A DNA stretch of 64,000 nucleotides. It comes from Conexibacter woesei Iso977N (GTDB lineage: Bacteria > Actinomycetota > Thermoleophilia > Solirubrobacterales > Solirubrobacteraceae). The notes below the pieces were generated by a model. That model saw nothing but the letters and a program-made list of their open reading frames with translations, was not told the origin of the DNA and did not search any database. The DNA lies in contig NZ_AUKG01000001.1 in the NCBI RefSeq assembly GCF_000424625.1, positions 682,001 to 746,000 on the forward strand, in the 5' to 3' direction. Shown piece by piece: positions 16,296 to 30,986 of this stretch (positions within the stretch are counted from its first letter, which is position 1; every line of letters starts with the position of its first letter). The translations under genes were made by a program, and so were the position numbers.

Positions 16296-18245
16296 TCACC
16301 CCGTGTCGGCCGGCAGCTGCCGGCCGGCCAGGCGGGGCTGGGGGAACGGGATCGCGGCAGCGCCGCGCTTCCACCAGACCGGCTGATGCGCGCGCCCCAG
16401 CACGGGGCGCGCGTGCTTCAGGTCCAGCGACGCGGGCGAGCGCTCCAGCGCCGCGGCGAACGCCGCGCGGGGGTCGCGCCCGAGGCGGGCCTGGACGATC
16501 GCCTGCGCGAGGCGCAGGCGGAAGTCGCCCGGGTCGCGGTCGACGGCCTGCTGCGCGGCCGTCAGAGCGGCGTTCGTGTCGCCCGCCTGCGTGGCGCACC
16601 ACGACGCGACCTCGTAGGGCTCGGGCCGGTCGACGAGCCCGGAGCGCGCGGCGGTCGCGTGGCGCTGTGCGGCGGCGCAGTCGCCCGCGGCGAACGCGTC
16701 GAGCGACCGGTCGACCGCGCGCTGCGAGCGCTGCACGGCGAACGGGACGACCGCGAGCGCGACCGTGGCGGCGACGACCGCCGCCCGCAGCGGCAGCGCG
16801 AGCGGCGCCGCCCGTGGCTCGCCGTCGTCCTCGGCGCGCGCCAGCGCCAGGCCGCCCGCGGCGAGCAGCGGCAGCGTCAGCGCGACCAGCTCCCAGTCGA
16901 AGTCGTAGGCCGCGTGGGCCAGCAGCGCCAGCGCGCCCGCCGCCAGGCCCGCCCAGGTCGCGTCGCGGCTCGCGGCCGCGCGGCACAGCAGCGCGACGAC
17001 GAGCGTCGCGAGCAGGACGGCGAGCAGCGCGAAGCCGACCAGCCCCAGCTCGCCGAGCGTCTCGGCGTAGAGCGAGTGCGCGTCGGCGGCCTCGAAGTGC
17101 GTGGTGCCGTCGCGGTCCCACAGCCGGCCGAAGCTCCCGGCGCCCGCGCCCTTCAGCGGCGCGGGCCGCGTGCCGTCGGCCAGCGCGACGTGCCACAGGT
17201 CCGCGCGGCCGTTGGTCCCGATCTCCTGGAAGCGCTGGTTGGGGGCCAGGCTCGACGAGACGGCGTTCCCGGTGTCCTGCAACGCGACGGCCGTCCCGAT
17301 CGCGACGCCGAGCACGACGAGGCCCGCGAGCGCCGCGCCGCGCGCGAGGCGCGGCGGGCCGCCGGGCGACCACGCCGCCAGGCGGTCGTCGAGGGCCAGC
17401 AGCGCGGCCCGGGACGCGGCGCCGAGCACCGCCGCGCCGAGGATCAGCAGCGCCGCGCGGTGGCCGCTGTGCAGCGCGGCGCCGGTCGGCGCCTGCACGT
17501 CGAGGCCGTGGGCGCCGTGGGCGGCGAGCAGCGCGAGGCCGGCCGCCGGGCCCGCGGCGGCCAGCGCGGTGAGCGTCCGGCGCGCGGGCCCGGCGGCGAC
17601 CAGGACCGCGAGGCCGACGAGCGCGGCCAGCGCCGCGCCGCGCGAGGCCGACAGGTAGACGACCGCGGCGGCGGGCGCGATGGCAGCGGCCGCGACGACG
17701 CGCAGCACGCGCGAGCGGTCGGTCGCCGAGATCGCCACGCACCAGACGGCGCCGAGCGCGGCGAGCATCCCGCTCGCGTTCCAGTAGGTGGTCGGGGCCG
17801 ACAGGCGCTCACGGTCGGCCGCCGGGATCCCGTGGACGTGGTCGGGCGCCAGCCACGCGCCGAGGCCGGCGACGGCCACGACGAGCGCGGCGGCCGCGAG
17901 CGCGAGCAGCAGCGTCCGCGCGCGCCCGTCGGTCCGGCCCAGCAGCGCGAACGCGGCCAGCGTCGCCAGGTAGGCGAGGTCGCGCGTGATGTCGAGCGTC
18001 CCGCGCCACGGCGCGTGCGACCAGCTCCCCGACAGCGCGACCCAGCCGATCAGCAGCGCCAGCGCGGCGAGCGCGACCGCCGCGCCGCGCGTCGGGCGCC
18101 GCGCCACGCCGGCGGCGGCCAGCAGCGCGCAGACGGCGAGCGCCACCAGCGCCGCGCCCGACGTCGCGCGCGGGAGGTAGCCCGCGCTGTGGAAGGCCAG
18201 CAGGCCGAGCGCGAGGCCCGGCAGCGCGGCGACCGCGGTCTTCAG
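16296..18245 (-). CDS. Wzy-type polymerase / O-antigen ligase family membrane protein with C-terminal repeat region
   Basis: About 649 residues with ten or more hydrophobic segments and the Wzy_C (O-antigen ligase) core: the long loop with NQRFQEIGTNGRADLW, GAGAGSFGRLW and DAHSLYAETLGELGLVG is the typical periplasmic loop with Arg and His. After the membrane part, about 130 soluble residues (AVDRSLDAFAAGDCAAAQRHA and later) look like TPR-type repeats. It should polymerise or ligate lipid-linked oligosaccharide at the outer face of the membrane. No ATG, GTG or TTG is suitably placed. I use CTG at 18243-18245, which overlaps the upstream stop as CTGA. The start is therefore uncertain. Confidence 0.8.
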   Translation of the reverse strand: MKTAVAALPGLALGLLAFHSAGYLPRATSGAALVALAVCALLAAAGVARRPTRGAAVALAALALLIGWVALSGSWSHAPWRGTLDITRDLAYLATLAAFALLGRTDGRARTLLLALAAAALVVAVAGLGAWLAPDHVHGIPAADRERLSAPTTYWNASGMLAALGAVWCVAISATDRSRVLRVVAAAAIAPAAAVVYLSASRGAALAALVGLAVLVAAGPARRTLTALAAAGPAAGLALLAAHGAHGLDVQAPTGAALHSGHRAALLILGAAVLGAASRAALLALDDRLAAWSPGGPPRLARGAALAGLVVLGVAIGTAVALQDTGNAVSSSLAPNQRFQEIGTNGRADLWHVALADGTRPAPLKGAGAGSFGRLWDRDGTTHFEAADAHSLYAETLGELGLVGFALLAVLLATLVVALLCRAAASRDATWAGLAAGALALLAHAAYDFDWELVALTLPLLAAGGLALARAEDDGEPRAAPLALPLRAAVVAATVALAVVPFAVQRSQRAVDRSLDAFAAGDCAAAQRHATAARSGLVDRPEPYEVASWCATQAGDTNAALTAAQQAVDRDPGDFRLRLAQAIVQARLGRDPRAAFAAALERSPASLDLKHARPVLGRAHQPVWWKRGAAAIPFPQPRLAGRQLPADTG

Positions 18246-19231
18246 AGGCGCGCCAGCCCGAGCTCGTCGAGGGCGGACGCCAGCGCGTCGTGCATGCTCG
18301 GCAGCGGCGACGCCTCCGGCCGCGGCAGCGGCGCGAGCGCGGCCTCGACGTGCTCGGGCCCGAGCCGGTCGTCGAGCGCGACGACGAGGCCGGACTCGGC
18401 GAGCTTGCCCATCAGCTGCTCCTGGTGGTCGTCGAAGTGCTCGCCGTGGCGCCTGGTCCGGCCGAGGACGATCGGCCGGTGGCCGGTGCGCAGCGCGGCC
18501 GACAGCGACCCCGCGCCGCCGTGGGAGACGATCACCTGCGAGCGCGCGATCGCGGCGGCCATCGCCTCCGGCGCCAGGAACTCGTGCGTCTCGGCCTCCG
18601 GGAACGGCACCCGGGACGGGCCGACCTGCGCGACGATCGGCGCCGGCAGGACGCCCGCGCGGGCCGCCGCGGCGGCGATCGAGACGAGCCGGTCGAACGG
18701 CGCCGTGTGCGTCCCGACGACGACCAACGTCCCGGCGGCGTCGCCGGCCAGCGGCGCGCCGACGTCTTCGAGCAGCAGGGGTCGGCACACGCGCGCTCGT
18801 GGGTACACCGAGCCCATCTCCGGCCATTGGACCAGATTCGCGTGCGCGAGCCGCGCCGTGACCCGTCCGGACGCGCTCGGGCCGGTCACGCGCGCCATCG
18901 TCTCCCCGAATACGAGCTTCGCGCCGGCCGCCCGCGCGACCGCGCAGTACAGCGCCGCCGAGCCCGCGCCGGTCGACACCACGATCTGCGGGCGATCGCG
19001 GCGCACCAGCCGGACGGCGGCGGCGATGCTCGCGCCGAGCTCGCGCGGGTGGCGCTCGTACTGGGGCAGGATCGTGACGTCCTCGCCGTCGCGCGCGAGC
19101 TGCTCGCCGCGCGGGCCGGGCGCGGTGACGAAACGCCGCAATTCGCGTGGCACGGCGGTGGCCAGCTGCTCCAGGAGGTTCAGATGCCCGCCTGGGGAGG
19201 CGACTAAGTGGACTGGGCGTCGAGCGGTCAT
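18242..19231 (-). CDS. Glycosyltransferase of MurG/Alg13-Alg14 type
   Basis: A 329-residue GT-B-like enzyme. The N-terminal half begins with VHLVASPGGHLNLLEQL, the Alg14/PssD opening, and contains VSTGAGSAALYCAVARAAGAK. The C-terminal half has VIVSHGGAGSLSAALRTGHRPIVLGRT, the Alg13/PssE nucleotide-sugar binding region. It therefore fuses both halves, which are separate proteins in many exopolysaccharide systems. It should add a sugar to a lipid-linked intermediate on the inner membrane face. ATG 19231 is divergent from the operon starting at 19291 across 59 bases. The Wzy gene follows with overlap. Confidence 0.85.
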   Translation of the reverse strand: MTARRPVHLVASPGGHLNLLEQLATAVPRELRRFVTAPGPRGEQLARDGEDVTILPQYERHPRELGASIAAAVRLVRRDRPQIVVSTGAGSAALYCAVARAAGAKLVFGETMARVTGPSASGRVTARLAHANLVQWPEMGSVYPRARVCRPLLLEDVGAPLAGDAAGTLVVVGTHTAPFDRLVSIAAAAARAGVLPAPIVAQVGPSRVPFPEAETHEFLAPEAMAAAIARSQVIVSHGGAGSLSAALRTGHRPIVLGRTRRHGEHFDDHQEQLMGKLAESGLVVALDDRLGPEHVEAALAPLPRPEASPLPSMHDALASALDELGLARL

Positions 19232-19278
19232 GGCGAAAGCACGGCCCCTGAGGCGAACGACCCCGAGAACCGGTTCCC

Positions 19279-19284
19279 CATAAT
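19279..19284 (+). promoter_or_regulatory. -10 element of the seven-gene polysaccharide operon
   Basis: CATAAT ends 6 nt before ATG 19291, which places the transcription start at or very near the start codon. No convincing -35 is seen 16-18 nt upstream. This supports the upstream ATG of the first gene and a leaderless operon mRNA. Confidence 0.5.
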
Positions 19285-19290
19285 GAAGAC

Positions 19291-20481
19291 ATGCTCGACC
19301 ACACGCCGGCCCACGCCGGCGGCCGGGACGGTGCGGCGATGACGTCGGCGCCCGCCGTCGCGATCACGCACGACTTCATGGAGATCTACGGGGGCGCCGA
19401 GCGCGTCACCCAGGAGCTGGCCTCCGCGTTCCCGGGCGCGCCGCTGACCGCCGTCCTCGGGCGCCGCTCGGTCGCCGCGCGCATGGGCGTCGCCGATCGC
19501 TTCACCAGCGTCCTGCCGCCGCGCGAGCTGCTGCTGCGCGGCTACCGCGTGCTGGCGCCCGCGCTGCCGGCCGTCGTCCACCACCACAGGCTCGACGACG
19601 CCGACGTCGTGCTGAGCTCGTCCTACGCGTTCGCGCACCTGTTCGAGACCCGCAACGACGCCCCGCAGGTCTGCTACTGCCACAGCCCGCTGCGCTTCGC
19701 GTGGTCGATGACCGAGCACTACGAGGACGAGAAGGCCGCCGGCTCGAAGCTCACGCGGACGGCGTTCCGGGCGATGGCCGCGCACAACCGCCGCGTCGAC
19801 TACAGGGGCGCGCAGCACGTCCACACCTACCTGACGCAGTCGCCCTACGTGGCCGGGCAGATCGAGGAGTTCTACGGCCGCCGCGCGCTGGTCGTGGGCG
19901 CGCCGGTCGACTGCTCGCACTTCACGCCGTCCGGCACCGCGCCCGAGGACTACTGGTTGATCTGCGGGCGCCTGGTCGAGCCCTACAAGCGCGTCACGCT
20001 GGCGCTGGAGGCGTTCCGCGACCTCCCCGGCGAGCGCCTGGTCATCGCCGGCGACGGGCCCGCGATGGCCGAGCTGCAGGCCAAGGCGCCGCCGAACGTG
20101 ACGTTCCTCGGCCACCTCGAGGACGACGCGGTCGTCAAGGCCATGCAGAACTGCAAGGCCACCATCTTCCCGAGCCGCGACGACTTCGGGCTGATCCCCG
20201 TCGAGGTCGCCGCGTGCGGCCGCCCGGTGCTGGCCTACGGCGACGGCGGCGCGCTGCACACGGTCGTCCCGGGGCTGACCGGCGAGCACTTCCACGAGCA
20301 GACGGCCGGCGCGCTGCTGGACGCGCTGCGCGCGTTCGACCCCGGCGCCTACGACCCGGCCGCGATCCGCGCCCACGCGCTGAAGTGGGACCGCGCGCCG
20401 TTCACGGCGCGCGTGCAGGCCGTGGTCGCCGCGGTCGCGGCGGGCACGGCGATCGACGAGGCGGCGGTGACGCTGTCGTGA
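19291..20481 (+). CDS. Glycosyltransferase family 4, first gene of the operon
   Basis: A 396-residue GT-B enzyme of the GT4 (WbaZ-like mannosyltransferase) group. The N-terminal THDFMEIYGGAERVTQEL contains the glycine-rich acceptor loop, CYCHSPLRFAWSM is typical of the subgroup, and the C-terminal domain has RLVEPYKRVTLALEAF and the E-x7-E type region DDFGLIPVEVAACGRPVLAYGDGG that binds the sugar nucleotide. I chose ATG 19291 because a CATAAT element ends 6 nt before it; ATG 19339 (MTSAPAVAITHD) is an alternative. Its stop overlaps the next GTG by 4 nt. Confidence 0.9.
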   Translation: MLDHTPAHAGGRDGAAMTSAPAVAITHDFMEIYGGAERVTQELASAFPGAPLTAVLGRRSVAARMGVADRFTSVLPPRELLLRGYRVLAPALPAVVHHHRLDDADVVLSSSYAFAHLFETRNDAPQVCYCHSPLRFAWSMTEHYEDEKAAGSKLTRTAFRAMAAHNRRVDYRGAQHVHTYLTQSPYVAGQIEEFYGRRALVVGAPVDCSHFTPSGTAPEDYWLICGRLVEPYKRVTLALEAFRDLPGERLVIAGDGPAMAELQAKAPPNVTFLGHLEDDAVVKAMQNCKATIFPSRDDFGLIPVEVAACGRPVLAYGDGGALHTVVPGLTGEHFHEQTAGALLDALRAFDPGAYDPAAIRAHALKWDRAPFTARVQAVVAAVAAGTAIDEAAVTLS

Positions 20482-21497
20482 GCGCGGCCGCCGTCAACGA
20501 GGCCCCGGCCAGCGGCCGCCCGCGCGTCGCGTTCCTGGCCTGGACCGACCGGACGCCGCGCGCCGACGAGATCGCCGCCAGCGTCGGCGGCGTCGCCCAG
20601 CGCTTCGACGGCTACGGCCTGCGCGGCCGCGCGACCGCGCCGCTGCGCTACGTCCTCAACGGCCTCGGGACGATCGCGTGGCTGGCCTGGCGGCGCCCGC
20701 GGGCCGTCGTCACCCAGAACCCGCCGGTCTTCGTCGGGCTGATCGCCTGGCTCTACGGGCTCGCGACGGGCGTGCCGGTGCTGCTCGACAGCCACCCGGC
20801 GTCGTTCGGCCGCAAGGACGGGCTCTGGAAGGTCATGCTGCCCGTCCACCGCTTCCTCGCCCGCCGCGCCCGGCTGGTCCTGGTGACGGCGCCCGAGCTG
20901 GCCGACGAGGTCCGCGCCTGGGGCGGCCGTGCCGCCGAGGTCCACGAGGCGCCGGTCGCCGAGCTGACCGCGACGCCCGCGCCGGAGCTGGCCGCAGGCG
21001 AGCGCCTACGCGTCTTCTACGTCGGCGTCTTCGCGCCCGACGAGCCGGCCGGCGCGGTGATCGAGGCGGCCCGGCTGGTGCCGGACGCCGACGTCCGCAT
21101 CACCGGCGACCTGCGCCGCGCGCCCGCCGGGCTGGTCGAGGGCGCCCCGGAGAACGTGACGTTCGTCGGGTTCCTGGCGCCGGAGGACTACCGGCGCGAG
21201 CTGCGGGAGGCCCACGTCGTGATGACGCTGACGACCGATCCGACGTCGGTCATGCGCTCCGGGTACGAGGCCGTTTACGCGGGCCGCCCGCTGGTGACCA
21301 GCGAATGGCCCGTGCTGCGCTCGACCTTCCCCTACGCTGTACACGCCGAGGGACGGCCGGAGGCTCTGGCCGCCGCCCTCACCGAAGCGACCCGGCGTCA
21401 CGCCGAGCTGCGGGCGAGCACCGCCCCGGCGCTCACGCACCAGCAGGCGACCTGGGCGTCCCAGCACGCCGCGATCGAGGAGGCCATCACCTCATGA
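20478..21497 (+). CDS. Glycosyltransferase (GT4-like)
   Basis: A 339-residue GT-B-type protein. The N-terminal half has VAFLAWTDRTPRADEIAASVGG and a hydrophobic region VVTQNPPVFVGLIAWLYGLATGVPVLLDSHPASFG, as in membrane-associated glycosyltransferases that act on lipid-linked acceptors. The C-terminal half carries VFYVGVFAPDEP, ENVTFVGFLAPEDY and VMRSGYEAVYAGRPLVTSEW, where the acidic residue of GYEAVYAG would bind the donor. Start GTG 20478 lies in a GTGA overlap. The donor sugar is unknown. Confidence 0.8.
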   Translation: MSAAAVNEAPASGRPRVAFLAWTDRTPRADEIAASVGGVAQRFDGYGLRGRATAPLRYVLNGLGTIAWLAWRRPRAVVTQNPPVFVGLIAWLYGLATGVPVLLDSHPASFGRKDGLWKVMLPVHRFLARRARLVLVTAPELADEVRAWGGRAAEVHEAPVAELTATPAPELAAGERLRVFYVGVFAPDEPAGAVIEAARLVPDADVRITGDLRRAPAGLVEGAPENVTFVGFLAPEDYRRELREAHVVMTLTTDPTSVMRSGYEAVYAGRPLVTSEWPVLRSTFPYAVHAEGRPEALAAALTEATRRHAELRASTAPALTHQQATWASQHAAIEEAITS

Positions 21498-22651
21498 CCG
21501 TTCCCCGCATACGTGTCCTCAAAGCCCTGCGCCGCCGTGCGTGGGTGCTCGTCGTCGCCGTCGCGCTGTGCGCGGCGGCCGCCGTCGTGCTCAGCGGCGC
21601 GCGCAGCTCGAGCTACACCAGCTCGTCGCTGCTGCTCGTCAACTCCGGCGCGGACGCGAAGGGCCCCGGCGACGCGTCGGAGGCCATCAACCTCGCCAGC
21701 ACCTACGCGACGCTGATCCCGCAGGACCCGGGCGTCACCAGCTACGTCGGCAGGCGGCTCGGCATGAGCAGCAGCGACGTCGAGGACGCGATCAGCGCGT
21801 CGCACCTCACCGGCACCGGGCTGATCACGCTCACCTTCAAGGACGACGACGGCGACAAGGCCGTCCAGGGCGCCGCGCTGACCGTCCGCGCGGTGACCGG
21901 CAACGCGCCGACGTCGGCCTCGATCGGGCCCGACTCGATGAAGGTCGTCCGCGCGCCCAGCCACGACCAGGGCTTCTCGAAGAAGCAGACGATCTCGCCG
22001 TCGGCGAGCCTGGCGCTGGCGATCGTCTTCGGCCTCTTCCTCGGGATCATCATCCTGATCGCCTGGGAGCGCGCCGACCCGCGGATCGACGAGCCCGGCG
22101 ACGTCGAGCTCGCCGCCCACCTGCCCGCCAGCCGCCTGAAGGACCTCTCGGGCTCGGCCCGCGCGGCGCTCGTCCAGCGCCTCGCCGGCCAGGCGGAGCC
22201 GGATCCCGCCGATCGCGCCGCGCCGCTGGCGCTGCTGCCGTCCGGTCCCCAGCAGGGCGCCGAGCTGCTCGACGCGGGCGACTCGCTCTGGAACGCGACC
22301 GCCGGCGCGCGCGGCGGGCTGGCCGACACCACGCCGACGCCGACGATCGTGCTCGGCGGCGACGGCCCGCAGGAGCTGGAGACGCTGCAGGCGGCCGAGA
22401 CCGGCGGCGCGCGGATCGTCGTCGCCCAGGAGGGCATGAAGGTCTCGCGCCTCGTCGCCGCGATCCACCACTACGAGCGCCTCGGCCTGACGCCGCAGTG
22501 GGTGCTGATGGTCAAGAAGGCCGGCCGCGCCCAGCGCCGCGCGGCCGCGGCCGAGCACGTCAGCTGGCTGCCGCGCGACACCAGGACCGCCGACAGCGGG
22601 AGCGAGCCCACGGCCGAGCAGGCGCACCCGGAGGACGTCGCCTCGCGATGA
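21494..22651 (+). CDS. Wzz-like polysaccharide co-polymerase with degenerate kinase-like C-terminal domain
   Basis: A 385-residue protein controlling polymer length with Wzy. It has two membrane helices (about 17-35 and 171-191) enclosing an extracytoplasmic domain with TYATLIPQDPGVTSYVGRRLG, as in Wzz/CapA proteins. The C-terminal 190 residues are cytoplasmic. Part of it, RIVVAQEGMKVSRLVAAIHHYERLGLTP, resembles the end of a bacterial tyrosine kinase (Wzc/CapB) domain, but no Walker A or Tyr cluster is present, so it is probably catalytically dead. ATG 21494 overlaps the previous stop by 4 nt. Confidence 0.8.
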   Translation: MTVPRIRVLKALRRRAWVLVVAVALCAAAAVVLSGARSSSYTSSSLLLVNSGADAKGPGDASEAINLASTYATLIPQDPGVTSYVGRRLGMSSSDVEDAISASHLTGTGLITLTFKDDDGDKAVQGAALTVRAVTGNAPTSASIGPDSMKVVRAPSHDQGFSKKQTISPSASLALAIVFGLFLGIIILIAWERADPRIDEPGDVELAAHLPASRLKDLSGSARAALVQRLAGQAEPDPADRAAPLALLPSGPQQGAELLDAGDSLWNATAGARGGLADTTPTPTIVLGGDGPQELETLQAAETGGARIVVAQEGMKVSRLVAAIHHYERLGLTPQWVLMVKKAGRAQRRAAAAEHVSWLPRDTRTADSGSEPTAEQAHPEDVASR

Positions 22652-24147
22652 GCGCGGCCGCGCCGACCATCGGCACGGCGCAGGTCATGCCGGCGGAGGG
22701 CGCCGGTCGTCGCGGGCTGCCCGCGCGCGACGGCGTCGTCCACGTCTGGCGCCATCCCGGCGTCCAGATGACCGCCGTCCTGGTCGCGGGCGCGGTGCTG
22801 CTCGGCGCCGCCGCGACGCAGGGCGTGCTGCCGGCGATCGCGGTCCTGCTCGGAGTGGCCGGGAGCCTCGTGGTCCTGGAGCGGCCGTGGATCGGCGGGA
22901 TCGCGCTGGCCGCGGCCGTGCCGGTCGTGGCCGGCCTGAACCGCGGCATCCCGGTCCCGGGCCTGCGGCTCAGCGAGATCCTGATCGGCTGGCTGTGCGC
23001 GATCGTGCTGCTGAGCGCCGACCGCCGCGTCGTGCCGCGCTGGCGCGCGTTCGACTGGGTCGCGTTCCTGTACGCCTTGGTCACGCTCGGCTTCGGCCTC
23101 TGGGACCTGCACCAGCGCGGCGGGGGCGTCAACTCGACGCAGCTCGGCACGCTGCTCGGGCCGCTGCAGTTCTTCCTGCTCTACCGCGCGATCGTCAGCT
23201 CGCTGTCGACGCCCGCGCTCGTGCGCCGCGGCCTGTGGTGGCTGCTGGGCGGCGGCGTCTTCGCGGCGTTCATCGCGCTGCTGCAGTACGCGGGGGTCGG
23301 GCCGGTCATCTCGACGCTCAACCGGATCTCGGGCGGCGACAACTTCGAGGACGCGGCCGCGGGCGGCGTCTCGCGCGTGACCGGGCCGTTCTCGCACGCC
23401 CAGCCGGCCTCGGCGTACTTCTTCCTGATCGTCTGCATCGCGGCGGCCGTGTGCCTGAGCGAGCGCAACGACGTCCGCCGGCGCTCGGCGACCTGGATCG
23501 TCCTGGCGATCGGCGCGGCCGCGCTGATGGCGACGTTCACGATGGGGCCGATCCTGTCGGTGCTCGTCGCGATCGCGCTGGTCGCCTTCTGGCGTCGCAA
23601 GCTGCGCGTGGTGTCGCTGTGGTTCATCGTCGCGGTGCTCGGCGCGACGCTGCTGTTCAGCGGGCCGATCACCGGGCGCCTGGACCAGCAGTTCCAGCGC
23701 GACCCGTCGGCGTCCGGGAGCGTGCTCGTCCCGCAGACCGTGAGCTACCGCTACGGGATCTGGACCGAGCAGTACTTCCCAGCACTTCGCGGGCGGTTGG
23801 TGACCGGCTACGGGCCGGACATCCCGCCGGAGATCACCTGGCGCTTCACCGAGTCGTTGTACATCACCTTGCTGCTGCGCGGCGGGATCCCGTTGTTGTT
23901 GTTGTACTTGGGATTCGTGATCGCGCTCGGGGGTGAGGCCGTGCGGACGATGCGGGAGACCGAAGGGGTGCCGCGCGCCGCGGCCCAGGGGCTGCTGGCG
24001 GCGCTGATCCTGCTGATGCCGATGCAGGTCATCCAGGCCTACTTCATCCAGGCCGGCCCGGGCCACCTCGTCTGGGCCCTCGGTGCGCTGGTCATCGCCA
24101 GCCGCAACGCCCACAACCGCGCGGCGGACGTCGCCGCGGACGCGTGA
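22648..24147 (+). CDS. Wzy-type O-antigen polymerase/ligase family protein
   Basis: A 499-residue membrane protein with about 11-12 hydrophobic segments. The Wzy_C-like loop lies between segments in the second half (GPFSHAQPASAYFFLI, then GRLDQQFQRDPSASGSVLVPQTVSYRYGIW and GRLVTGYGPDIPPE), with Arg and His residues expected at the active site. It should join repeat units on undecaprenyl pyrophosphate outside the membrane. It shares the family with the protein at 16296-18245 but has no TPR tail. It overlaps both neighbours by 4 nt. Confidence 0.85.
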   Translation: MSAAAPTIGTAQVMPAEGAGRRGLPARDGVVHVWRHPGVQMTAVLVAGAVLLGAAATQGVLPAIAVLLGVAGSLVVLERPWIGGIALAAAVPVVAGLNRGIPVPGLRLSEILIGWLCAIVLLSADRRVVPRWRAFDWVAFLYALVTLGFGLWDLHQRGGGVNSTQLGTLLGPLQFFLLYRAIVSSLSTPALVRRGLWWLLGGGVFAAFIALLQYAGVGPVISTLNRISGGDNFEDAAAGGVSRVTGPFSHAQPASAYFFLIVCIAAAVCLSERNDVRRRSATWIVLAIGAAALMATFTMGPILSVLVAIALVAFWRRKLRVVSLWFIVAVLGATLLFSGPITGRLDQQFQRDPSASGSVLVPQTVSYRYGIWTEQYFPALRGRLVTGYGPDIPPEITWRFTESLYITLLLRGGIPLLLLYLGFVIALGGEAVRTMRETEGVPRAAAQGLLAALILLMPMQVIQAYFIQAGPGHLVWALGALVIASRNAHNRAADVAADA

Positions 24148-25058
24148 CGGTCGTCCGTGGCCGCCGCCTGTGGGCGCTCGTGGCGGTGACGGCCGTCGCC
24201 GTCGCGGCGATCGCCGCCGGCGCCGCGCTGCTGCTGGGCGGCGGCGACGACGGCGGTGCGCACGCCGCGAGCAGGGGGCCGGCGCTCGCGTGGGCGCCGC
24301 CGCGCCTGCACGCGCCGCAGACGATCCACGTCACGGCGGCGCGGGCCAAGCTGAAGCTCGATCCCCGGCGCGACTACCGCGTCGTGCTCCCGCGCACGCC
24401 GGTCCGGGTCGCGGGCGGCCTGACGATCGCCGGCGGCCGGAACGTCGTCGTGCGCGGCGGGCAGGTCGTGGTCCCGTGGCAGGGCGCCAGGCCCGCCAGC
24501 GGCTCGACGCGGCGCGGGTTGTTCCTCACGGGGCAGACCGGGACCGTCCACGTCGAGGGCCTCCGGCTGAGCGGCGACCTCGGCGACGGCATCGACCTCG
24601 ACGAGCGCCTCGGCGCGACCGTGCAGCTGGAGAACATCCGCGTCGATCGCGTGACTGCTCGGGACACCAAGAAGTTCAGCGACACCCACCCGGACGTCGT
24701 GCAGTCCTGGGCCGGGCCGAAGGTCCTGCGCATCGACCGGCTCAGCGCCGCGACCGACTACCAGGGCTTCTTCCTGCTGCCCGACCAGTTCGCCAAGGGG
24801 ACGACCGCGCGCGTCGACCTGCGCCACGTCGACCTCGTCGGCTCCAGGACCTCGGCCTACCTGCTGTGGCGCGACCGCGCTGCCGCCGTCACGCTCCGCG
24901 ACGTCCGCCTGACCTCGCCGGGCGCGCGCCCCGTCTACCAGACGATGTGGCCGACGCCCGCCTGGTGGCCCGGCGCGAGGGTCATCCGCCACGCCCCCCG
25001 CACGCTGTTCGCGAGCCCGCGCGCGGGCATCTCCTACACCTCGCCCGGATACCGATGA
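24144..25058 (+). CDS. Membrane-anchored or secreted beta-helix-like protein inside the polysaccharide operon (SPGY family, member 2)
   Basis: A 304-residue protein with an N-terminal hydrophobic helix (LWALVAVTAVAVAAIAAGAALLLGG, about 9-33) that can be a signal anchor. The rest is the family core: LAWAPPRL, a run of beta strands, GTVHVEGLRLSG, DGIDLDERLGATVQLENIR, THPDVVQSWAG, TDYQGFFLL, and the last residues YTSPGYR. The core resembles a right-handed parallel beta-helix as in polysaccharide lyases or hydrolases, yet no known catalytic set is recognised. The strict H-x-D-[VL]-[VI]-Q motif is the best active-site candidate. Its place between Wzy and the pyruvyl transferase, with 4-nt overlaps on both sides, ties it to polymer export or modification. 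Confidence 0.8.
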   Translation: MTVVRGRRLWALVAVTAVAVAAIAAGAALLLGGGDDGGAHAASRGPALAWAPPRLHAPQTIHVTAARAKLKLDPRRDYRVVLPRTPVRVAGGLTIAGGRNVVVRGGQVVVPWQGARPASGSTRRGLFLTGQTGTVHVEGLRLSGDLGDGIDLDERLGATVQLENIRVDRVTARDTKKFSDTHPDVVQSWAGPKVLRIDRLSAATDYQGFFLLPDQFAKGTTARVDLRHVDLVGSRTSAYLLWRDRAAAVTLRDVRLTSPGARPVYQTMWPTPAWWPGARVIRHAPRTLFASPRAGISYTSPGYR

Positions 25059-26080
25059 CCTCCGCCGCACCCGATCCGCTCGCGGTCCAGCCGCTGGACG
25101 AGGCCTACCGCAGCCTCGTCGCGCCCGGGACGCCGATCGCGCTGCTCGACTTCCCGCTCTACCCCAACGTCGGCGACTCGGCGATCTGGCTCGGCGCGGC
25201 CGCGCTCGCGCAGCGCAACGGCAACACCATCAAGTACACCGCCAACCACGCGTCCTACTCGGCGGCGGGGCTGCGGCGCTGCCTTCCGGAGGACGGCGTG
25301 ATCGTCGTCCAGGGCGGCGGCAACTTCGGCGACCGCTGGCCCGCGCACCATCAGCTGCGCGAGCGCGTCGTCTCCGACTTCCCGGACCGGCCCGTCGTCT
25401 TCTTGCCGATCAGCGTCGAGTTCCTCAGCGCCGAGGCGGCGGAGCGCTCGTTCGCGCTGCTCGCCGCGCATCCGCGCCTGCACGTCATGGTCCGCGACCG
25501 GGCGTCGTGCGCGACGGTCGAGCAGGCGCTCCCGGGGCGCACGCGGCTGACCCCGGACGCCGCGACCGCGCTCGGCCACCTCGACGCCGGCGCGGCCGCG
25601 CCGGCCCACGACGTCGTCGCGCTCGTCCGCACCGACTCCGAGGCGCAGGCGCGCGTCCCGGCGCCGCCCGCCGGCCTCGACGTGCGCGTGATCGACTGGC
25701 TCAACGTCCCGGGCCAGGACGGCTACGACCCGGCCTTCCGGCGCAGTGAGTGGGCCCTGCAGCGGCTCGGCTCGGTCCTCGTCCGCGTCCCGGCCATCGC
25801 ACCGCCCGGCCACCAGTCGCTGGTCCTCGCGGCCTACATGCGGATGGCGCGCCGGCGGCTGGCCTGGGGCGTCCGTGTGCTCGCCTCCGGGCGCGTCGTC
25901 GCGACCGACCGCCTCCACGCGCACATCATCTGCGAGCTGCTGGGCCGGCGCCACGTCGTCGCCGACAGCGGCCACGGCAAGATCAGCGGCTACGTCGCGA
26001 CGCACGGGCAGTCGGCGACGAGCACGCTCGTCGCGCCCGCCGAGCTCTACGACGCGGTCGCCCGCGAGCTGGCCCGATGA
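25055..26080 (+). CDS. Polysaccharide pyruvyl transferase family protein
   Basis: A 341-residue enzyme that would add pyruvate ketal groups to sugars from phosphoenolpyruvate. Family features: NVGDSAIWLGA near the N-terminus, VVQGGGNFGDRWP, VVFLPISVEF, and the C-terminal block VVATDRLHAHIICELLGRRHVVADSGHGKISGY, with the His/Arg residues that bind phosphate. Pyruvylation adds negative charge to extracellular polymers and can anchor S-layer-type proteins. Start ATG 25055 overlaps the beta-helix gene by 4 nt. Confidence 0.9.
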   Translation: MTSAAPDPLAVQPLDEAYRSLVAPGTPIALLDFPLYPNVGDSAIWLGAAALAQRNGNTIKYTANHASYSAAGLRRCLPEDGVIVVQGGGNFGDRWPAHHQLRERVVSDFPDRPVVFLPISVEFLSAEAAERSFALLAAHPRLHVMVRDRASCATVEQALPGRTRLTPDAATALGHLDAGAAAPAHDVVALVRTDSEAQARVPAPPAGLDVRVIDWLNVPGQDGYDPAFRRSEWALQRLGSVLVRVPAIAPPGHQSLVLAAYMRMARRRLAWGVRVLASGRVVATDRLHAHIICELLGRRHVVADSGHGKISGYVATHGQSATSTLVAPAELYDAVARELAR

Positions 26081-27624
26081 GCGACGTCTACGTCCCACCC
26101 GATCCCAACGAGGACCCGCTCACCGACGAGGCGGCACAGCGACCGGTCGAGGCGCCCGAGCCGGCCGAGCGCCAGATGGGCCGCGCCGAGGTCCGGACGC
26201 GCGCCGTGCGCGGCGCGGTCAGCCTCGGCATCCGCAACCTCGCGGTGCGCGCGATCAACCTGATCGGGACGATCGTCCTCGCGCGCCTGCTCGACCCGCA
26301 CGACTTCGGCCTGCTGGCGTTCGCGTTCGCCGTCAAGTCGGTCAGCGACATGCTCGCGGCCGGCGGCCTGGCGGCGGGCTTGATCCGGCGCGAGGCGATG
26401 CCGACGCGGCGCGAGCTGCAGGCGACGCTCGGCTTCCAGCTGTCGACGACGTCGTCGCTGGTGCTGCTGATCGCGCTCTGCGGGGCGATCTTCGGCGGCG
26501 CGGCCTGGGTCGCGACCGTGATGGCCGCCTCGCTGCCGATCTTCGCGCTGCGCGTGCCGACGATCGTGATGCTCGAGCGCAAGCTCGACTGGTCGCTGCC
26601 CGCGCGCGCCGAGGTCGCCGAGACCGTCGTCTACAACGCGATCGCGATCGGCCTGGTCGTCGCGGGGGCGGGCGTCTGGGGCGTCGCCGCGGCCGCGACG
26701 GTGCAGGGACTGGTCGGCTCGTTCCTGCTGGTCTCCAACGGCGGCGTCGGCTGGCTGCGGCCGATCCGCGACCCGTCGATCACGCGCCCGCTGCTGCGCT
26801 TCGGGATCGGCTTCCAGGCCGTCCCCCTCGTCGGCGCCGCGCGCGAGCAGGGCACCAACATGGTGATCGCCGCGGTCGGCGGCGTCGCGATGCTCGGCAT
26901 CTGGTCGGCGGCCTACCGCGTGCTGCAGACGATGCTGCTGCTCCTGCAGAGCCTCTGGCGCGTTTCCTATCCGGCGATGGCGCGGGCGATGGAGGCGGGG
27001 GCGGACCCGCGGCCGATGCTCGAGCGGATCCTCGTCGTGACCGCCGTGCTGCTCGGGCTGCCCGCCGTCTGGGTCGCGGGCAGCGCGCCGGACCTCGTCC
27101 ACGCCGTGTTCGGCGCGCGCTGGGACGACGCGATCGACGTGCTGCCGTGGGGCGCGGCCGCGTTCATGTTCCAGGGGCCGATCTCGACGATGGCCTCGGG
27201 CTTCCTGCAGGCGCGTGGCGACGTGGGGCGGATCGTGGTCGTGGTGCTGCTGCAGTCGGTGATCTGGATTGCCTGGACCGCCGCGCTGATCCCGTCGATG
27301 GGCGTCGAGGGCGCGGGCATCGGGATGCTGATCGGCTCGCTGTTCTACACGGTCGGCAACGTCTGGCTCGTCGACCGCCACGTCAAGATCTCGGCGATCC
27401 GCCCGATGGCCGGGCCGCTGCTGACCGCGCTGATCGGCGCGGTCGCGGCGCGCGCGGTCGCCGACGCGGTCAGCCCGCCGCTCCTCGGCCTCGTCGCGTC
27501 GTGCGCGGCCGGGACCGTCGTGTACGCCGTGATCCTCGGTGTCGTCCGGCGCGGCGACGTGCGCACCGTCGCCAGGACGCTCAACCTCGCGCGCGGCCGG
27601 CCCGAGCCGGCGGGCACGGTCTAG
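26077..27624 (+). CDS. Wzx-type flippase (polysaccharide transporter family)
   Basis: A 515-residue membrane protein with about 14 hydrophobic segments after a 45-residue acidic, Pro-rich cytoplasmic N-terminus. The opening GAVSLGIRNLAVRAINLIGTIVLARLLDPHDFGLLAF is the hallmark of the MOP-superfamily polysaccharide flippases (RfbX/Wzx/WzxC). It should flip lipid-linked repeat units outward. It is the last gene of the operon; its stop and that of the convergent GT2 gene share the palindrome CTAG at 27621-27624. Confidence 0.92.
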   Translation: MSDVYVPPDPNEDPLTDEAAQRPVEAPEPAERQMGRAEVRTRAVRGAVSLGIRNLAVRAINLIGTIVLARLLDPHDFGLLAFAFAVKSVSDMLAAGGLAAGLIRREAMPTRRELQATLGFQLSTTSSLVLLIALCGAIFGGAAWVATVMAASLPIFALRVPTIVMLERKLDWSLPARAEVAETVVYNAIAIGLVVAGAGVWGVAAAATVQGLVGSFLLVSNGGVGWLRPIRDPSITRPLLRFGIGFQAVPLVGAAREQGTNMVIAAVGGVAMLGIWSAAYRVLQTMLLLLQSLWRVSYPAMARAMEAGADPRPMLERILVVTAVLLGLPAVWVAGSAPDLVHAVFGARWDDAIDVLPWGAAAFMFQGPISTMASGFLQARGDVGRIVVVVLLQSVIWIAWTAALIPSMGVEGAGIGMLIGSLFYTVGNVWLVDRHVKISAIRPMAGPLLTALIGAVAARAVADAVSPPLLGLVASCAAGTVVYAVILGVVRRGDVRTVARTLNLARGRPEPAGTV

Positions 27625-28451
27625 CGCGGCGACCGTCGCGCGGCGCGTTCGCCCGCCCAGCGCCCGGCGATCTCCGTCGCGCGCAGGTAGTTCAGCCGCT
27701 GGACCAGCGGCGGCCGGCGGCTGCCCGGCGGGAGCTCGGACCACCAGGCGCGCAGCGCAGCGCGGGTGCCGAACGCGTGCTGGCCCGACAGCTGGGCGAG
27801 CGCGAACGACTCCTTGCGCGTGCGGCGGAACAGCGCGCGCACGCCGGCACGGCGCCGGTGCGCGGCGCTGACCCACAGGTCGGGGTCGGCGACGAACGTC
27901 CAGCCCGCCTCCAGCTCGCGCCAGAACCAGTCGCGGTCCTCGCAGGCGACGAGGCGCTCGTCGATCGGCTGCTCGCGCCAGCGGCTGGCCCGCCACGCCG
28001 AGGCGTGGTTGGTGTAGCCCCACAGCGGCGTCTGCCGCAGCTCGGCGCCCGCGACGACCAGCGGCTCGGTGAGTGCGTGGCCGTCCGGGGTGGTGCGGAT
28101 GCCCCAGCAGCCGGCGACGCGCGGGTCCTCGAAGTGGGCCACCGCGCGGGCGATCCAGTCCTCGCGCTCCAGGAAGCAGTGGGCGGACACCGCGACGTGC
28201 ACCGGGGCGGCCGCGGCCGCGGCGCCGGTGTTCAGCGCGCCGCCGAACGTGAAGTCCTCGGGGGCGATCCGGATCACGCGGTCGACCAGCGGCGTCGCGA
28301 TCTCCAGCGTCCGGTCGGTCGAGCCCGAGTCCACCAGGATGATCTCGACCGGCACGGTCTGCGCGCGGATCAGCGCCAGGCAGCGGCCGATCGCCTGCTC
28401 CTCGTCCTTGGACCGGACGATGACGCTCGCTGCTGGCGCGCCGTCGCTCAT
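27621..28451 (-). CDS. Glycosyltransferase family 2, rhamnosyltransferase-like
   Basis: A 276-residue GT-A enzyme. The N-terminal SVIVRSKDEEQAIGRCLALI and IILVDSGSTDRTLEIA form the nucleotide site. The usual metal-binding segment reads VAVSAHCFLEREDWI, the SAH type seen in the rhamnosyltransferase branch. The acidic catalytic pair appears as CEDRDWFWRELEAG. The C-terminal 60 residues are Arg-rich. The start is ATG 28451 with TAGACT (28461-28466, minus strand) ending 9 nt before it. It lies between the operon end and a beta-helix gene. Confidence 0.88.
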   Translation of the reverse strand: MSDGAPAASVIVRSKDEEQAIGRCLALIRAQTVPVEIILVDSGSTDRTLEIATPLVDRVIRIAPEDFTFGGALNTGAAAAAAPVHVAVSAHCFLEREDWIARAVAHFEDPRVAGCWGIRTTPDGHALTEPLVVAGAELRQTPLWGYTNHASAWRASRWREQPIDERLVACEDRDWFWRELEAGWTFVADPDLWVSAAHRRRAGVRALFRRTRKESFALAQLSGQHAFGTRAALRAWWSELPPGSRRPPLVQRLNYLRATEIAGRWAGERAARRSPR

Positions 28452-28480
28452 CGGCGCATCAGTCTATGGAGCGCCGCGGC

Positions 28481-29905
28481 TCAGCTCGCGTAGCCGGGCG
28501 AGCGGTAGGCCGTGCCGACCGTGGCGCTCGTCGCGTAGGACCCGCCGGACGGCGTGCCCTGGATGACGCCCGGGCCCCAGGCGGCCGGGGTCGGCCACTG
28601 CGAGCTCCACATGCCCTTCCTGTGGTCGGGCACGAGGTAGAGGTTGCTCACGCTCATCGGGAACGTCGTGGACTGCCACAGCAGGACGCCCGCGAACGGG
28701 AGGCCGTTCCTGTAGGAGGCGCTGATGTCGATGTTGCGCAGGTCGAACTGGGACGGCACGACCGTGCCGTACTGCATCGGCGCGAAGAAGAAGCCCTGGT
28801 AGTCGCTGCTGCCGGAGAGGTGGTCGACGCGCAGGACGTTGGGGCCGGCCCAGGTCTGGATCAGGTCCGGGTGGTTGTCGGTGAAGCCGGCCTCGTCGCG
28901 GGCGTGGACGCCGTCGATCCGGACGTCCTGGATCTGGACGGTCGCGCCGAGGCGCTCGTCGAGGTCGATGCCCTCGCTGAGGTCGGCGCCGTGGATCCAC
29001 AGGCCCTCGACGTGGACGGTGCCCGTCTGGTTCTGGAGGTACAGGCCGCGGCGCGAGTTGACCGGCGGCGGGTCGCCCTGCCACGGGATGTCGATCTCGC
29101 CGCCGATCAGCACGACGTTGTGCCCGCCGTTGATGACCACGCCGTAGCCGCCGGTCAGCGCGCCCGCGGGCATGCTGACGATGTAGTCCTTGCCGGCGTC
29201 GAGCCTCAGCGAGCGGTTCGTCGTGGTGACGTTGATCGTGATCGGGTTGACGAGCCTCGGCGGCGCCCAGGTGAGCCTGCTGCGCGTCGCGGCGACCGCG
29301 TCGCTGGTTCCGGCGCCCGCGGCGCCCGCGACCGTCGTCCCGGAGGCGACGGAGACCGGCGGGACGGGCGCGGTCGTCGTCGTGGTGCTCGTCGACGTCG
29401 TCGTGGTCGTCCTGGCCGGCGCCGGCGCCGGCGGCGCGGCGGCGGTGGTCGTGGTCGTCGCCGCGGGCCTGGTCGCCGCGGCGGGGGCGGCCGCGGTCGT
29501 CGTCGTCGCGGTGGTCGACGTGGTCGTGGTCGTCGTCGCGGGCAGCGTGACGGTCGTCGTGCTCGTGACCGGCCTGCCGCTCTGCGGGGTCAGCGTGCCG
29601 ACGACCTTGACCTGCCTGCAGGCCCTGCACTTGGTGGTCTTGAGGCTGAGCGTGCGCGTCGCGCCGCGCTTGAGCGACGTGCTGCCCCTGGCGATCGTGC
29701 TCGACCCGGACGCCTTGACCGCGACCGCGACCCTGCCGGCGGCCGAGGCCTTCACGCTCACGGTGATCGCGCTCTTGCCCGCCTTGGCGGTCACCGACAG
29801 CTTCGGCTTGGCGGCGGCGTTCGCGCCGGCCGCCGGCACCAGCGCGAGGGCGAGGGCGAGCGGGACGGCGGTGGCGAGGTGGGGACGGCGGCGACGCACC
29901 CTCAT
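28481..29905 (-). CDS. Secreted beta-helix-like protein with Thr-rich linker (SPGY family, member 3)
   Basis: A 474-residue exported protein. The signal peptide is about 1-31 (AVPLALALALVPAAGANAAA). Residues about 32-120 form an Ig-like beta domain rich in Lys and Ser with a CRAC motif. A Thr/Ala/Pro linker of about 90 residues follows. The C-terminal domain is the shared core: LTWAPPRLVNP, HNVVLIGG, GTVHVEGLWIHG, EGIDLDERLGATVQ, NHPDLIQTWAG, SDYQGFFFAP, and the ending YRSPGYAS. It is closest to the 24144-25058 protein (the DLDERLGATVQ block is identical). An inverted repeat lies directly before its start codon. Confidence 0.82.
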   Translation of the reverse strand: MRVRRRRPHLATAVPLALALALVPAAGANAAAKPKLSVTAKAGKSAITVSVKASAAGRVAVAVKASGSSTIARGSTSLKRGATRTLSLKTTKCRACRQVKVVGTLTPQSGRPVTSTTTVTLPATTTTTTSTTATTTTAAAPAAATRPAATTTTTAAAPPAPAPARTTTTTSTSTTTTTAPVPPVSVASGTTVAGAAGAGTSDAVAATRSRLTWAPPRLVNPITINVTTTNRSLRLDAGKDYIVSMPAGALTGGYGVVINGGHNVVLIGGEIDIPWQGDPPPVNSRRGLYLQNQTGTVHVEGLWIHGADLSEGIDLDERLGATVQIQDVRIDGVHARDEAGFTDNHPDLIQTWAGPNVLRVDHLSGSSDYQGFFFAPMQYGTVVPSQFDLRNIDISASYRNGLPFAGVLLWQSTTFPMSVSNLYLVPDHRKGMWSSQWPTPAAWGPGVIQGTPSGGSYATSATVGTAYRSPGYAS

Positions 29906-29936
29906 CTGGTCGGTGCAAGCGGCCGTGCACGACCAG
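29906..29936 (-). promoter_or_regulatory. Inverted repeat abutting the start codon of the beta-helix gene
   Basis: CTGGTCGGTGCA (29906-29917) and TGCACGACCAG (29926-29936) form an 11-bp stem with one bulged G and an 8-nt loop. It sits immediately 5' of the ATG on the minus strand, where a ribosome binding site would be expected, and none is visible. It could be a regulator site or an RNA hairpin controlling translation. Confidence 0.4.
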
Positions 29937-30014
29937 CGTTCGGGTCGATCGCTGGACAGATGGTCGGATCAACCGTTTCCGGCGGCGGCCGATGGTCGCT
30001 AAGGTCCCGCCGCG

Positions 30015-30986
30015 ATGGAGCCTCCGGTGCCGACCGTGTCCGTGGTCATGCCCACGTACAACCGGCGGGCGCAGCTGCGCACCGTGCTGGCGCCGCTGTT
30101 GGCCGATCCGGCGGCGACCGAGATCGTCGTGGTCGTCGACGGCAGCGACGACGGCTCGCTCCAGGAGCTGCAGGCGCTGGCCGCCACCGACCCGCGGCTG
30201 ATCCCCGTCTGGCAGGAGAACGCAGGCGAGGGCGCGGCGCGCCAGGCGGGCGTCGAGCGCGCGAGCGGCGACGTCGTCCTGCTGCTCGACGACGACGTCG
30301 AGGCCGAGCCGGGCCTGGTCGCCGGCCACGCCCGCCACCACGCGCAGCGCGACGACCTCGCGGTCCTCGGCTACATGCCGCCGGTCCCGGCGCAGCAGGG
30401 CGATCCGGACGCGTTCAGCGTCCAGCTCTACACCGAGGCCTACGAGGGCCGCTGCGCGAGCTACGAGGAGGATCCGGGCCTGATCCTGCGCCACCTCTGG
30501 GCCGGCAACGTCTCGCTGCGGCGCGCGACGGTCCTGGAGGTCGGGATCGGGAGCGACGCCTACGACGAGCGCTACCACCCCGACCGCGAGTTCGGCCTGC
30601 GGCTGCTGAGCCACGGCCTGACCGGCGTCTTCGACCGCGACCTGCGCGCCCGCCACCACTACCACCGCCCGCTGGCGTCGTTCGTCAAGGACGCGCGCAG
30701 CCAGGGCGCGGGCTGGACGCTCGTCCACCAGCTCCACGGCGACGAGGCCGGCGACCTGCCCGAGGACCGCTTCGAGACCGGCCTGCCCGGCCCGGTCGCC
30801 GCGCTGGTCCGGATCTGCCGCCGCCCGCGCGCCGCGGCGCTCGTTGCGGCCGCGCTGACCGCCGGCCTGCGCGCCGCGGCTGCGGCCGGCAACACCGCCG
30901 CGGCGGTGCGCTTCGCGCGCCTGCTGCGCCGCGTCGAGCAGCAGCGCGGCGCGATCGAGCTGCGCCGCCGCCACGGCGCCGCTTGA
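30015..30986 (+). CDS. Glycosyltransferase family 2
   Basis: A 323-residue GT-A enzyme: SVVMPTYNRRAQLRTVL, VVVVDGSDDGS, and the metal-binding DDD in VVLLLDDDVEAEPG. The acceptor region has LWAGNVSLRR and HPDREFGLRLLSHG with the catalytic acidic residue, followed by a C-terminal Ala/Arg-rich helix. It is a clear paralogue of 32604-33551, sharing LW(A/G)GNVSLRRA and the spacing after it. ATG 30015 follows TAAGGT (30000-30005) by 9 nt. It stands alone between divergent and downstream genes. Confidence 0.9.
   Translation: MEPPVPTVSVVMPTYNRRAQLRTVLAPLLADPAATEIVVVVDGSDDGSLQELQALAATDPRLIPVWQENAGEGAARQAGVERASGDVVLLLDDDVEAEPGLVAGHARHHAQRDDLAVLGYMPPVPAQQGDPDAFSVQLYTEAYEGRCASYEEDPGLILRHLWAGNVSLRRATVLEVGIGSDAYDERYHPDREFGLRLLSHGLTGVFDRDLRARHHYHRPLASFVKDARSQGAGWTLVHQLHGDEAGDLPEDRFETGLPGPVAALVRICRRPRAAALVAAALTAGLRAAAAAGNTAAAVRFARLLRRVEQQRGAIELRRRHGAA

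Follow-up and report, generated by a model that had tools for sequence, protein, structure and literature searches.

A probable Wzx/Wzy-type polysaccharide operon of Conexibacter woesei joined throughout by 4-nt overlaps, the commonest gene join of its genome

Introduction

Translation of overlapping genes can be tightly linked. Huber et al. 2019 report that 13 of the 14 overlapping pairs they tested were strictly coupled (PMC6728339). Another route to coupling discussed there, upstream-dependent de novo initiation, allows the levels within a pair to differ five- to tenfold (PMC6728339). According to Huber et al. 2023, E. coli pairs spaced at -8 to +10 are 4.5-fold enriched for complexes, and 69.6% of them encode no complex (PMC10666635). 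Here we analyze a string of seven genes in Conexibacter woesei Iso977N that are joined by six overlaps of 4 nt (spacing -4). The string lies in a stretch of 64,000 nt (contig NZ_AUKG01000001.1, positions 682,001 to 746,000), referred to as the window, and all coordinates are those of this stretch.

Results

The seven ORFs (19291-27624) are all on the plus strand and in frame, each with a single terminal stop. The head gene GT1 (19291-20481) encodes a GT4-type glycosyltransferase (Pfam PF00534, E 6e-19) with 85% identity to its counterpart in a same-genus relative, G001. GT2 (20478-21497) encodes a second, GT4-like glycosyltransferase (PF13579, E 5e-11), 46% identical to a homologue in an Acidothermaceae MAG (locus L115) and 49% to one in Cellulomonas aerilata (locus L114). 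A Wzz-like chain-length regulator follows (21494-22651), slightly under the Pfam cut-off (PF02706, E 3e-5, 24.5 bits; cut-off 25.5). The next product (22648-24147) belongs to the O-antigen ligase/polymerase family with a score over the cut-off (PF04932, E 1e-9); since PF04932 is common to ligases and polymerases, we regard it as a putative Wzy polymerase. BH1 (24144-25058) is a predicted right-handed parallel beta-helix protein with a hydrophobic N-terminal segment, as read from its sequence. The last two genes encode a polysaccharide pyruvyltransferase (25055-26080; PF04230, E 2e-19) and a Wzx flippase (26077-27624; PF13440, E 6e-30; PF01943, E 4e-15). The 3' end of wzx shares the letters CTAG (27621-27624) in a tail-to-tail 4-nt overlap with a glycosyltransferase gene of the GT2 family on the minus strand. 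Note that the genes near the operon include an ABC-type exporter pair.

A protein scan of 50 of the 53 genes called in the window identified three Bac_transf proteins, the initiating sugar transferases (PF02397, E 1e-57 to 2e-65), at 42486-43940, 44116-45582 and 59717-60403. The gene families of the operon fit Wzx/Wzy polysaccharide synthesis. Together with the three initiating transferases, this makes it likely that the seven genes form one operon and serve one pathway, as a sequence-only reading of the locus had proposed; the sugar chemistry is putative.

That reading had described the six overlaps as identical. Their length is indeed the same at all six joins, whereas the letters differ, with four ATGA and two GTGA. 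GTGA joins GT1 to GT2 (20478-20481) and Wzy to BH1 (24144-24147). ATGA is found at GT2/Wzz (21494-21497, with GAGGAGG upstream), Wzz/Wzy (22648-22651), BH1/pyruvyltransferase (25055-25058) and pyruvyltransferase/Wzx (26077-26080). Starts were assigned with a simple custom gene caller, which rewards Shine-Dalgarno sequences, has no overlap bonus and included the window in its training set. For five of the downstream genes its choice fell on the -4 start; in the case of the sixth, Wzz, it favoured GTG 21545 over ATG 21494. The latter is the better choice because the N-terminus read from it, MTVPRIRV, is conserved in G001; Wzy likewise agrees with G001 at its N-terminus when read from the -4 start. 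With a strict caller that disregards Shine-Dalgarno sequences no run of -4 joins exceeded four, and the run of six hinges on the choice of the Wzz start.

To judge how unusual such joins are, we counted spacings in 2.064 Mb of the 5.70-Mb genome, window included. A strict count gave -4 as the top spacing, with 216 of 1186 co-directional junctions (runner-up -1, n = 54) and 216 of the 321 overlapping pairs. In a relaxed count, which also takes -4 starts scoring up to 2 units below the best, the spacing occurred at 246 of the 1186 co-directional junctions and at 246 of the 662 with close spacing. These fell into 160 single joins, 30 runs of two, 4 of three, 2 of four and 1 of six. The single run of six is this operon, the longest in the sample. 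When the -4 flags were shuffled 5000 times, runs of at least six arose in 1.5% of shuffles over all co-directional junctions and in 3.7% over close pairs only. Given these probabilities (0.015-0.037) and the fact that the run was singled out post hoc, it is only mildly unusual.

We next compared predicted pairing with the anti-Shine-Dalgarno sequence, using a caller blind to this signal because one that rewards it would be biased. Mean pairing was -4.90 before -4 starts (n = 212) and -3.60 before RTGA stops that lack a -4 follower (n = 176; p = 9.5e-5). Within the operon, the Shine-Dalgarno sequences are strong at 20478, 21494 and 22648, where independent initiation could occur, and weak at 24144, 25055 and 26077, where pairing of -3.3 to -3.9 is near the random level (mean -3.1). 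The fixed stoichiometry that had been read from the overlaps finds no support here: -4 is the commonest join of the genome, and the strength of the Shine-Dalgarno sequences differs widely from join to join.

Upstream of GT1 we noted a predicted -10 element, CATAAT (19279-19284, plus strand), the first base of which is 12 nt upstream of the start. It is contained in a 26-nt block from 19275 that is identical in G001, in an intergenic stretch that has otherwise diverged. Genome-wide, -10-like hexamers occur at -17 to -12 in 226 of 1097 isolated or head genes, compared to 13 matches at -29 to -24 and 20 at -41 to -36. The conserved element and this peak suggest that the operon mRNA is probably leaderless, or nearly so, and starts at GT1. 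Against this, a consensus sigma-70 scan of 18000-30100 returned no promoter-like site and no full sigma-70 promoter.

Comparison with G001 showed that five of the six joins are retained with the same ATGA or GTGA letters. The BH1/pyruvyltransferase join is among them, despite only 36% identity between the two pyruvyltransferases, a divergence that may reflect gene replacement. The pyruvyltransferase/Wzx join is lost because wzx (81% identical) is inverted in G001. On the opposite strand it has an ATGA join with a different upstream gene, and Wzx starts ATGAGC in either orientation. In the sets searched, no further genome had the pyruvyltransferase-Wzx neighbourhood. None of the 19 inverted-repeat pairs in the window stretch brackets the ends of wzx. 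In G001, weak GC-rich pairs flank the gene (27 nt, 78%; 20 nt, 85%), among the 25 of 57 pairs listed. Conservation of the -4 spacing in G001 (4 of 4 testable operon joins) is indistinguishable from that elsewhere in the genome (19 of 23; the other four are not -4), where 5 of 78 joins with another spacing are -4 in G001. The proposal that all seven proteins act in one complex is unsupported: wzx is inverted in the nearest relative, and the joins are conserved no differently from those of other genes.

We then examined more distant loci. On L115 (contig JAICYF010000149.1, 7.3 kb), five of the seven genes have homologues, all on one strand and in changed order: GT1, GT2, Wzz, Wzy and the beta-helix gene. 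The beta-helix gene stands immediately behind GT1 and a GT28-like gene is inserted. Most joins of this locus are -4 (-4, -4, -4, -4, +8, -1; four of six), some starts having been taken as -4 starts within longer open frames. The GT2/Wzz join is ATGA as in the window and G001, whereas Wzz/Wzy is spaced +8 and Wzy/esterase -1. No pyruvyltransferase or Wzx match was found on the 7.3-kb contig. At L114 the Wzz/Wzy join is GTGA, a 117-nt gap separates Wzy from the beta-helix gene, and GT2 is on the opposite strand. Note that the Wzz and Wzy proteins score under the Pfam cut-offs at L115 and gave no Pfam match at E 0.001 at L114; at both loci their assignment is based on tblastn/blastp to the window proteins. 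In a third lineage (G619), Wzy and Wzx domains lie within one 1291-aa reading frame, an apparent fusion, which suggests that the two are closely linked in function. A search of one literature library with limited wording found no paper on a natural Wzx-Wzy fusion. The seven-gene order was not found at 19 loci from further members of the genus, family and order scanned with a window-trained codon model; these loci were left out of all counts because the model missed many genes.

The case that the sequence-only reading had named as refuting it, scattered genes or gaps at these junctions in relatives, does occur: relatives show an inverted wzx (G001), a gap and a GT2 on the other strand (C. aerilata), and Cellulomonas and a further family together present gaps, scatter and the apparent fusion. 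A common pathway is nevertheless favoured by the frame that Wzy and Wzx share in G619 and by two distant contigs on which GT2, Wzz-like, Wzy-like and beta-helix genes again occur side by side in one locus.

BH1 gave no Pfam match at E 0.01. The AlphaFold2 model has a confident core (mean pLDDT 78.5; 134 of 304 residues at 90 or above). Foldseek against the PDB reached a best E of 0.15. VIA-align superimposed 223 residues on pectate lyase 7xks (Z 16.8, rmsd 3.8), with Z of about 14-17 for many pectate/alginate lyases and tailspikes. A PDB profile search with the BH1 alignment yielded one match, 8zvk_A 'AaBgIC' (E 4.7e-8), in two stretches, the better covering 64 chain residues; a viral structure library gave no match at E <=0.001. 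Among 396 genomes drawn from the phylum, the alignment hit only its own genome. In named genomes a scan located six loci: Actinotalea, Cellulomonas and the Acidothermaceae MAG account for five, Sphingobium for one. Two paralogues of BH1 lie inside the window.

Discussion

We consider the best reading to be an ordinary Wzx/Wzy-type surface-polysaccharide operon, and we hold it probable that this operon is expressed from a leaderless mRNA by termination-reinitiation, with protein ratios that are not fixed. A single mRNA would begin at GT1, and a ribosome finishing one gene would restart on the next at each ATGA or GTGA, aided at the first three joins by a Shine-Dalgarno-like sequence. Such coupling is plausible because Huber et al. 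2019 observed strict coupling in nearly all of their overlapping pairs (13 of 14; PMC6728339). The -4 overlap may arise anew after gene exchange, reordering or flipping, and would link the translation of neighbours without setting fixed ratios. More tentatively, ATGA/GTGA might serve as a standard connector in these actinobacterial polysaccharide operons, with selection or recombination re-forming the exact 4-nt join with a new upstream gene, so that coupling is kept as gene content changes.

Alternatively, the overlaps could be a neutral by-product of compaction and codon structure: once genes are crowded together or lose a stop, the upstream frame would run on to the TGA within ATGA or GTGA, with no functional coupling involved. 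Fonseca et al. 2013 describe overlaps as arising more often when the upstream gene is lengthened at its 3' end, and a mutation model of theirs accounts for much of the overlap length distribution (PMC3887535). The inverted wzx fits this idea, as any in-phase upstream frame without its own stop would end in its ATGAGC start. Nevertheless, we regard a purely neutral origin as unlikely in view of the Shine-Dalgarno excess at -4 starts over RTGA stops, the predominance of -4 over all other overlap lengths, and the strict coupling of tested pairs (PMC6728339).

Much less credible is the proposal that the overlaps fix equal amounts of seven proteins because these form one complex. Glycosyltransferases and pyruvyltransferase are enzymes for which a 1:1 ratio with the polymerase is unnecessary. 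The shared Wzy-Wzx frame of G619 and the enrichment for complex subunits that E. coli and H. volcanii show among close or overlapping pairs (PMC10666635) would be in line with a complex, but the nearest relative has an inverted wzx and a highly diverged pyruvyltransferase, gaps, scattered genes and different neighbours mark the distant homologous loci, and Shine-Dalgarno sequences range from strong to weak within the operon. Least probable of all is that starts are mis-assigned and that selecting -4 starts created part of the regularity: long open frames extend beyond several starts in this GC-rich DNA, and the caller's choice for Wzz and the strict-caller run of at most four point that way, but a caller that gave overlaps no bonus arrived at five of the six -4 starts, and all five joins in common with G001 keep their letters, with matching Wzz and Wzy N-termini.

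In conclusion, this run of equal joins, however striking, mostly reflects the default of this genome and should not be taken as evidence for a seven-part complex. With an exact ATGA in both orientations of wzx, and one kept by a diverged pyruvyltransferase, the locus offers a natural case for weighing selection against a neutral origin of overlaps.

Six joins in a row are long for this genome, and coupling at them is putative. In common with the pairs described by Huber et al. (PMC6728339, PMC10666635), it has ATGA/GTGA overlaps of 4 nt, the commonest overlap length. The combination of Shine-Dalgarno sequences at downstream starts with many leaderless-looking head genes resembles what these authors describe for Haloarchaea, one group of Crenarchaeota and Cyanobacteria. 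The operon differs from Wzx/Wzy-dependent clusters in carrying an unnamed beta-helix protein and a Wzz-like protein slightly under the Pfam cut-off, and in that the initiating transferases are at least 15 kb off, outside the operon. Like such clusters, it combines in one gene string a flippase, a polymerase, a chain-length-type protein, glycosyltransferases and a pyruvyltransferase, and the window encodes initiating sugar transferases at other places.

Six 4-nt overlaps link the seven genes

The seven reading frames (19291-27624, +) and the six 4-nt stop/start overlaps described by the sequence-only reading are present exactly as claimed. The sequence reads GTGA at 20478 and 24144, and ATGA at 21494, 22648, 25055 and 26077 (all + strand). 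Our own gene caller, trained on the same genome (window included) and giving no reward for overlaps, picked five of these six -4 starts. For Wzz it favoured a start 51 nt further downstream; at the sequence level, the -4 start is supported by its N-terminus MTVPRIRV, which is conserved in the same-genus genome. The strict caller without Shine-Dalgarno information yielded no -4 run longer than 4, and thus the run of six hinges on the -4 start of Wzz.

Pfam assigned genes 1 and 2 (GT1 and GT2) to the GT4-type glycosyltransferases, gene 4 to Wzy_C, gene 6 to the polysaccharide pyruvyltransferases and gene 7 to a Wzx-type family. Gene 3 gave a Wzz-like match of 24.5 bits, slightly below the cut-off of 25.5, and the Pfam search with gene 5 gave no match. 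The seven genes likely form one operon and serve one pathway. Three initiating sugar transferases (Bac_transf) are encoded in the same window beyond the operon, at 42486-43940, 44116-45582 and 59717-60403 (all +).

The sequence of gene 5 shows a hydrophobic segment at the N-terminus. An AlphaFold2 model built from an alignment of 12 sequences reached a mean pLDDT of 78.5, and most of its beta core was confidently predicted. Foldseek found no match in the PDB below E 0.15. In a second look with VIA-align, the model matched a pectate lyase (Z 16.8, rmsd 3.8, 223 residues); several lyases acting on pectate, pectin or alginate and one phage protein tied with it. We take gene 5 to encode a predicted right-handed beta-helix protein, putatively acting on or holding polysaccharide. 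The window contains three beta-helix paralogues (6438-7913, +; 24144-25058, +; 28481-29899, -), and the same-genus relative G001 has three counterparts close to the corresponding places.

Several neighbouring features were noted. Wzx and a convergent glycosyltransferase gene overlap tail to tail by exactly 4 nt (CTAG, 27621-27624). A 1141-aa protein (38766-42191, +) combines glycosyltransferase family 2, methyltransferase and polysaccharide deacetylase domains. Near the Wzx/Wzy operon are genes for a second Wzy_C protein (16296-18146, -) and for a pair of ABC exporter proteins that includes a Wzt C-terminal domain (33566-35628, +), and the region may therefore be shared by two export routes.

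The run of overlaps is only mildly unusual

Spacing was analyzed in a 2.064-Mb sample of the genome (5.70 Mb in total) that contains the window. Counted strictly, 216 of 1186 co-directional junctions were -4, the second most frequent spacing being -1 (n=54). A looser count also admitted -4 starts whose score was no more than 2 units below that of the best start; by it, there were 246 -4 joins, out of 1186 co-directional and 662 closely spaced junctions. Consecutive -4 joins then formed runs of length 1 (n=160), 2 (n=30), 3 (n=4), 4 (n=2) and 6 (n=1, the operon). When the -4 flags were shuffled 5000 times, a run of at least 6 arose in 1.5% of shuffles over all co-directional junctions and in 3.7% over close junctions. 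Thus, the operon run, which was picked for study because of its conspicuousness, is the longest in the sample yet only mildly unusual.

Joins and gene content in relatives

In G001, five of the six operon joins are -4, each with the same ATGA or GTGA. Joins were compared in 247 kb of G001 where both genes were reciprocal best matches with >50% identity. By this measure -4 joins were also -4 in G001 in 19/23 cases outside the operon and 4/4 inside, the pyruvyltransferase join being absent from the latter because of the identity threshold. Conservation of the operon joins is therefore indistinguishable from that in the rest of the genome.

The two pyruvyltransferases are only 36% identical, compared with 74-85% for the six other operon proteins, and each is similarly close (36-41%) to proteins that belong to different families of the same order or class. 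From these identities we read one of the two lineages as having probably replaced its gene and either retained or re-created the ATGA join; very fast divergence is the possible alternative. The wzx gene, 81% identical in G001, lies there on the opposite strand, preceded by a GT2-family (glycosyltransferase family 2) gene with an ATGA overlap; its 3' end and that of the convergent pyruvyltransferase gene overlap by 38 nt. The same wzx start is thus joined by an exact ATGA to one upstream gene in this genome and to a different one in G001. Given these joins and the ATGA retained beside the diverged pyruvyltransferase, the overlap may be actively restored. A neutral route is possible as well: an upstream frame lacking a stop codon would, if in phase, terminate at the TGA contained in ATGA.

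Among 61 genomes (own, genus, family and order), the beta-helix gene was found at E <=1e-5 only in its own genome and G001. A scan of named genomes for the beta-helix family identified six loci, distributed over five contigs, and all were compared with the operon proteins by tblastn. Two matched GT2, Wzz and Wzy in addition to the beta-helix protein. The first, on Acidothermaceae MAG contig JAICYF010000149.1, has the order GT1 (truncated by the contig end), beta-helix, GT28-like, GT2, Wzz, Wzy, esterase, with joins of -4, -4, -4, -4, +8 and -1; the GT28-like, Wzz and Wzy starts were chosen by us within longer open frames. In the second, from Cellulomonas aerilata, Wzz and Wzy are joined by GTGA and a 117-nt gap separates Wzy from a beta-helix gene downstream of it; the opposite strand carries GT2 and, set apart, a Wzx-type gene. 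The Wzz- and Wzy-like proteins of both loci had no Pfam match or scored under the cut-off. Related beta-helix genes are multi-copy at the C. aerilata locus. Of the other four loci, L111 and L112 have beta-helix and Wzx-type genes. L113, on the C. aerilata contig, combines a beta-helix gene with a weak match to GT1, and at L116 only the beta-helix protein was matched.

A GT2 search of 396 genomes drawn from the phylum returned the own genome and two others. In G619, GT2 is separate from the other homologues, and a Wzz-like domain ends a 774-aa frame, followed after 3 nt (TTG start assumed) by a 1291-aa open frame with Wzy and Wzx, an apparent polymerase-flippase fusion. Within the latter frame (357-4232, -, of the fetched locus L188), an Aminoglyc_resit (nucleotidyltransferase-like) domain lies between Wzy_C and the Wzx-type domain; a PAS-GGDEF protein precedes the 774-aa frame. 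G488 had GT2 and a weak GT1 match only, within the 18 kb fetched.

Translation of the operon and meaning of the joins

Using a caller blind to Shine-Dalgarno sequences, we scored pairing with a 9-base anti-Shine-Dalgarno. Pairing was stronger before -4 starts (mean -4.90, 212 sites) than before RTGA stops without a -4 follower (-3.60, 176 sites; Mann-Whitney p = 9.5e-5). Operon joins 1-3 pair strongly (-9.3, -11.3, -9.3), and joins 4-6 (-3.9, -3.3, -3.7) are close to the random mean of -3.1.

Among isolated or head genes of the 2.064 Mb sample, 226/1097 carry -10-like hexamers at -17 to -12, a sharp excess over equal-width control stretches (13 hits at -29..-24, 20 at -41..-36). We read this peak as a probable mark of leaderless mRNAs, pointing to these being widespread in the organism. 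Upstream of GT1, CATAAT (first base at -12) sits in a 26-nt block identical in G001, the remaining intergenic DNA having diverged; a consensus promoter scan there found no site. The Shine-Dalgarno excess at -4 starts, the -10-like peak and CATAAT are best read together as an mRNA that would start leaderless at GT1, the subsequent genes being translated by termination-reinitiation at each -4 join.

Scattered genes or gaps at the junctions, which the sequence-only reading had named as evidence against it, occur in distant relatives and, in the nearest relative, at one join. Its further proposals, that stoichiometry is fixed and that all seven products form one complex, are unsupported, because -4 is the commonest join, Shine-Dalgarno context is uneven along the operon, gene identity and orientation differ in close relatives, and E. 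coli figures point the same way. By analogy, translational coupling at the operon joins is plausible and would be typical: Huber et al. 2019 (PMC6728339) found strict coupling in 13 of the 14 overlapping pairs they assayed, the contribution of the Shine-Dalgarno sequence varying. In E. coli, 69.6% of the pairs spaced -8 to +10 are reported to encode no complex, though complexes are still enriched (PMC10666635).
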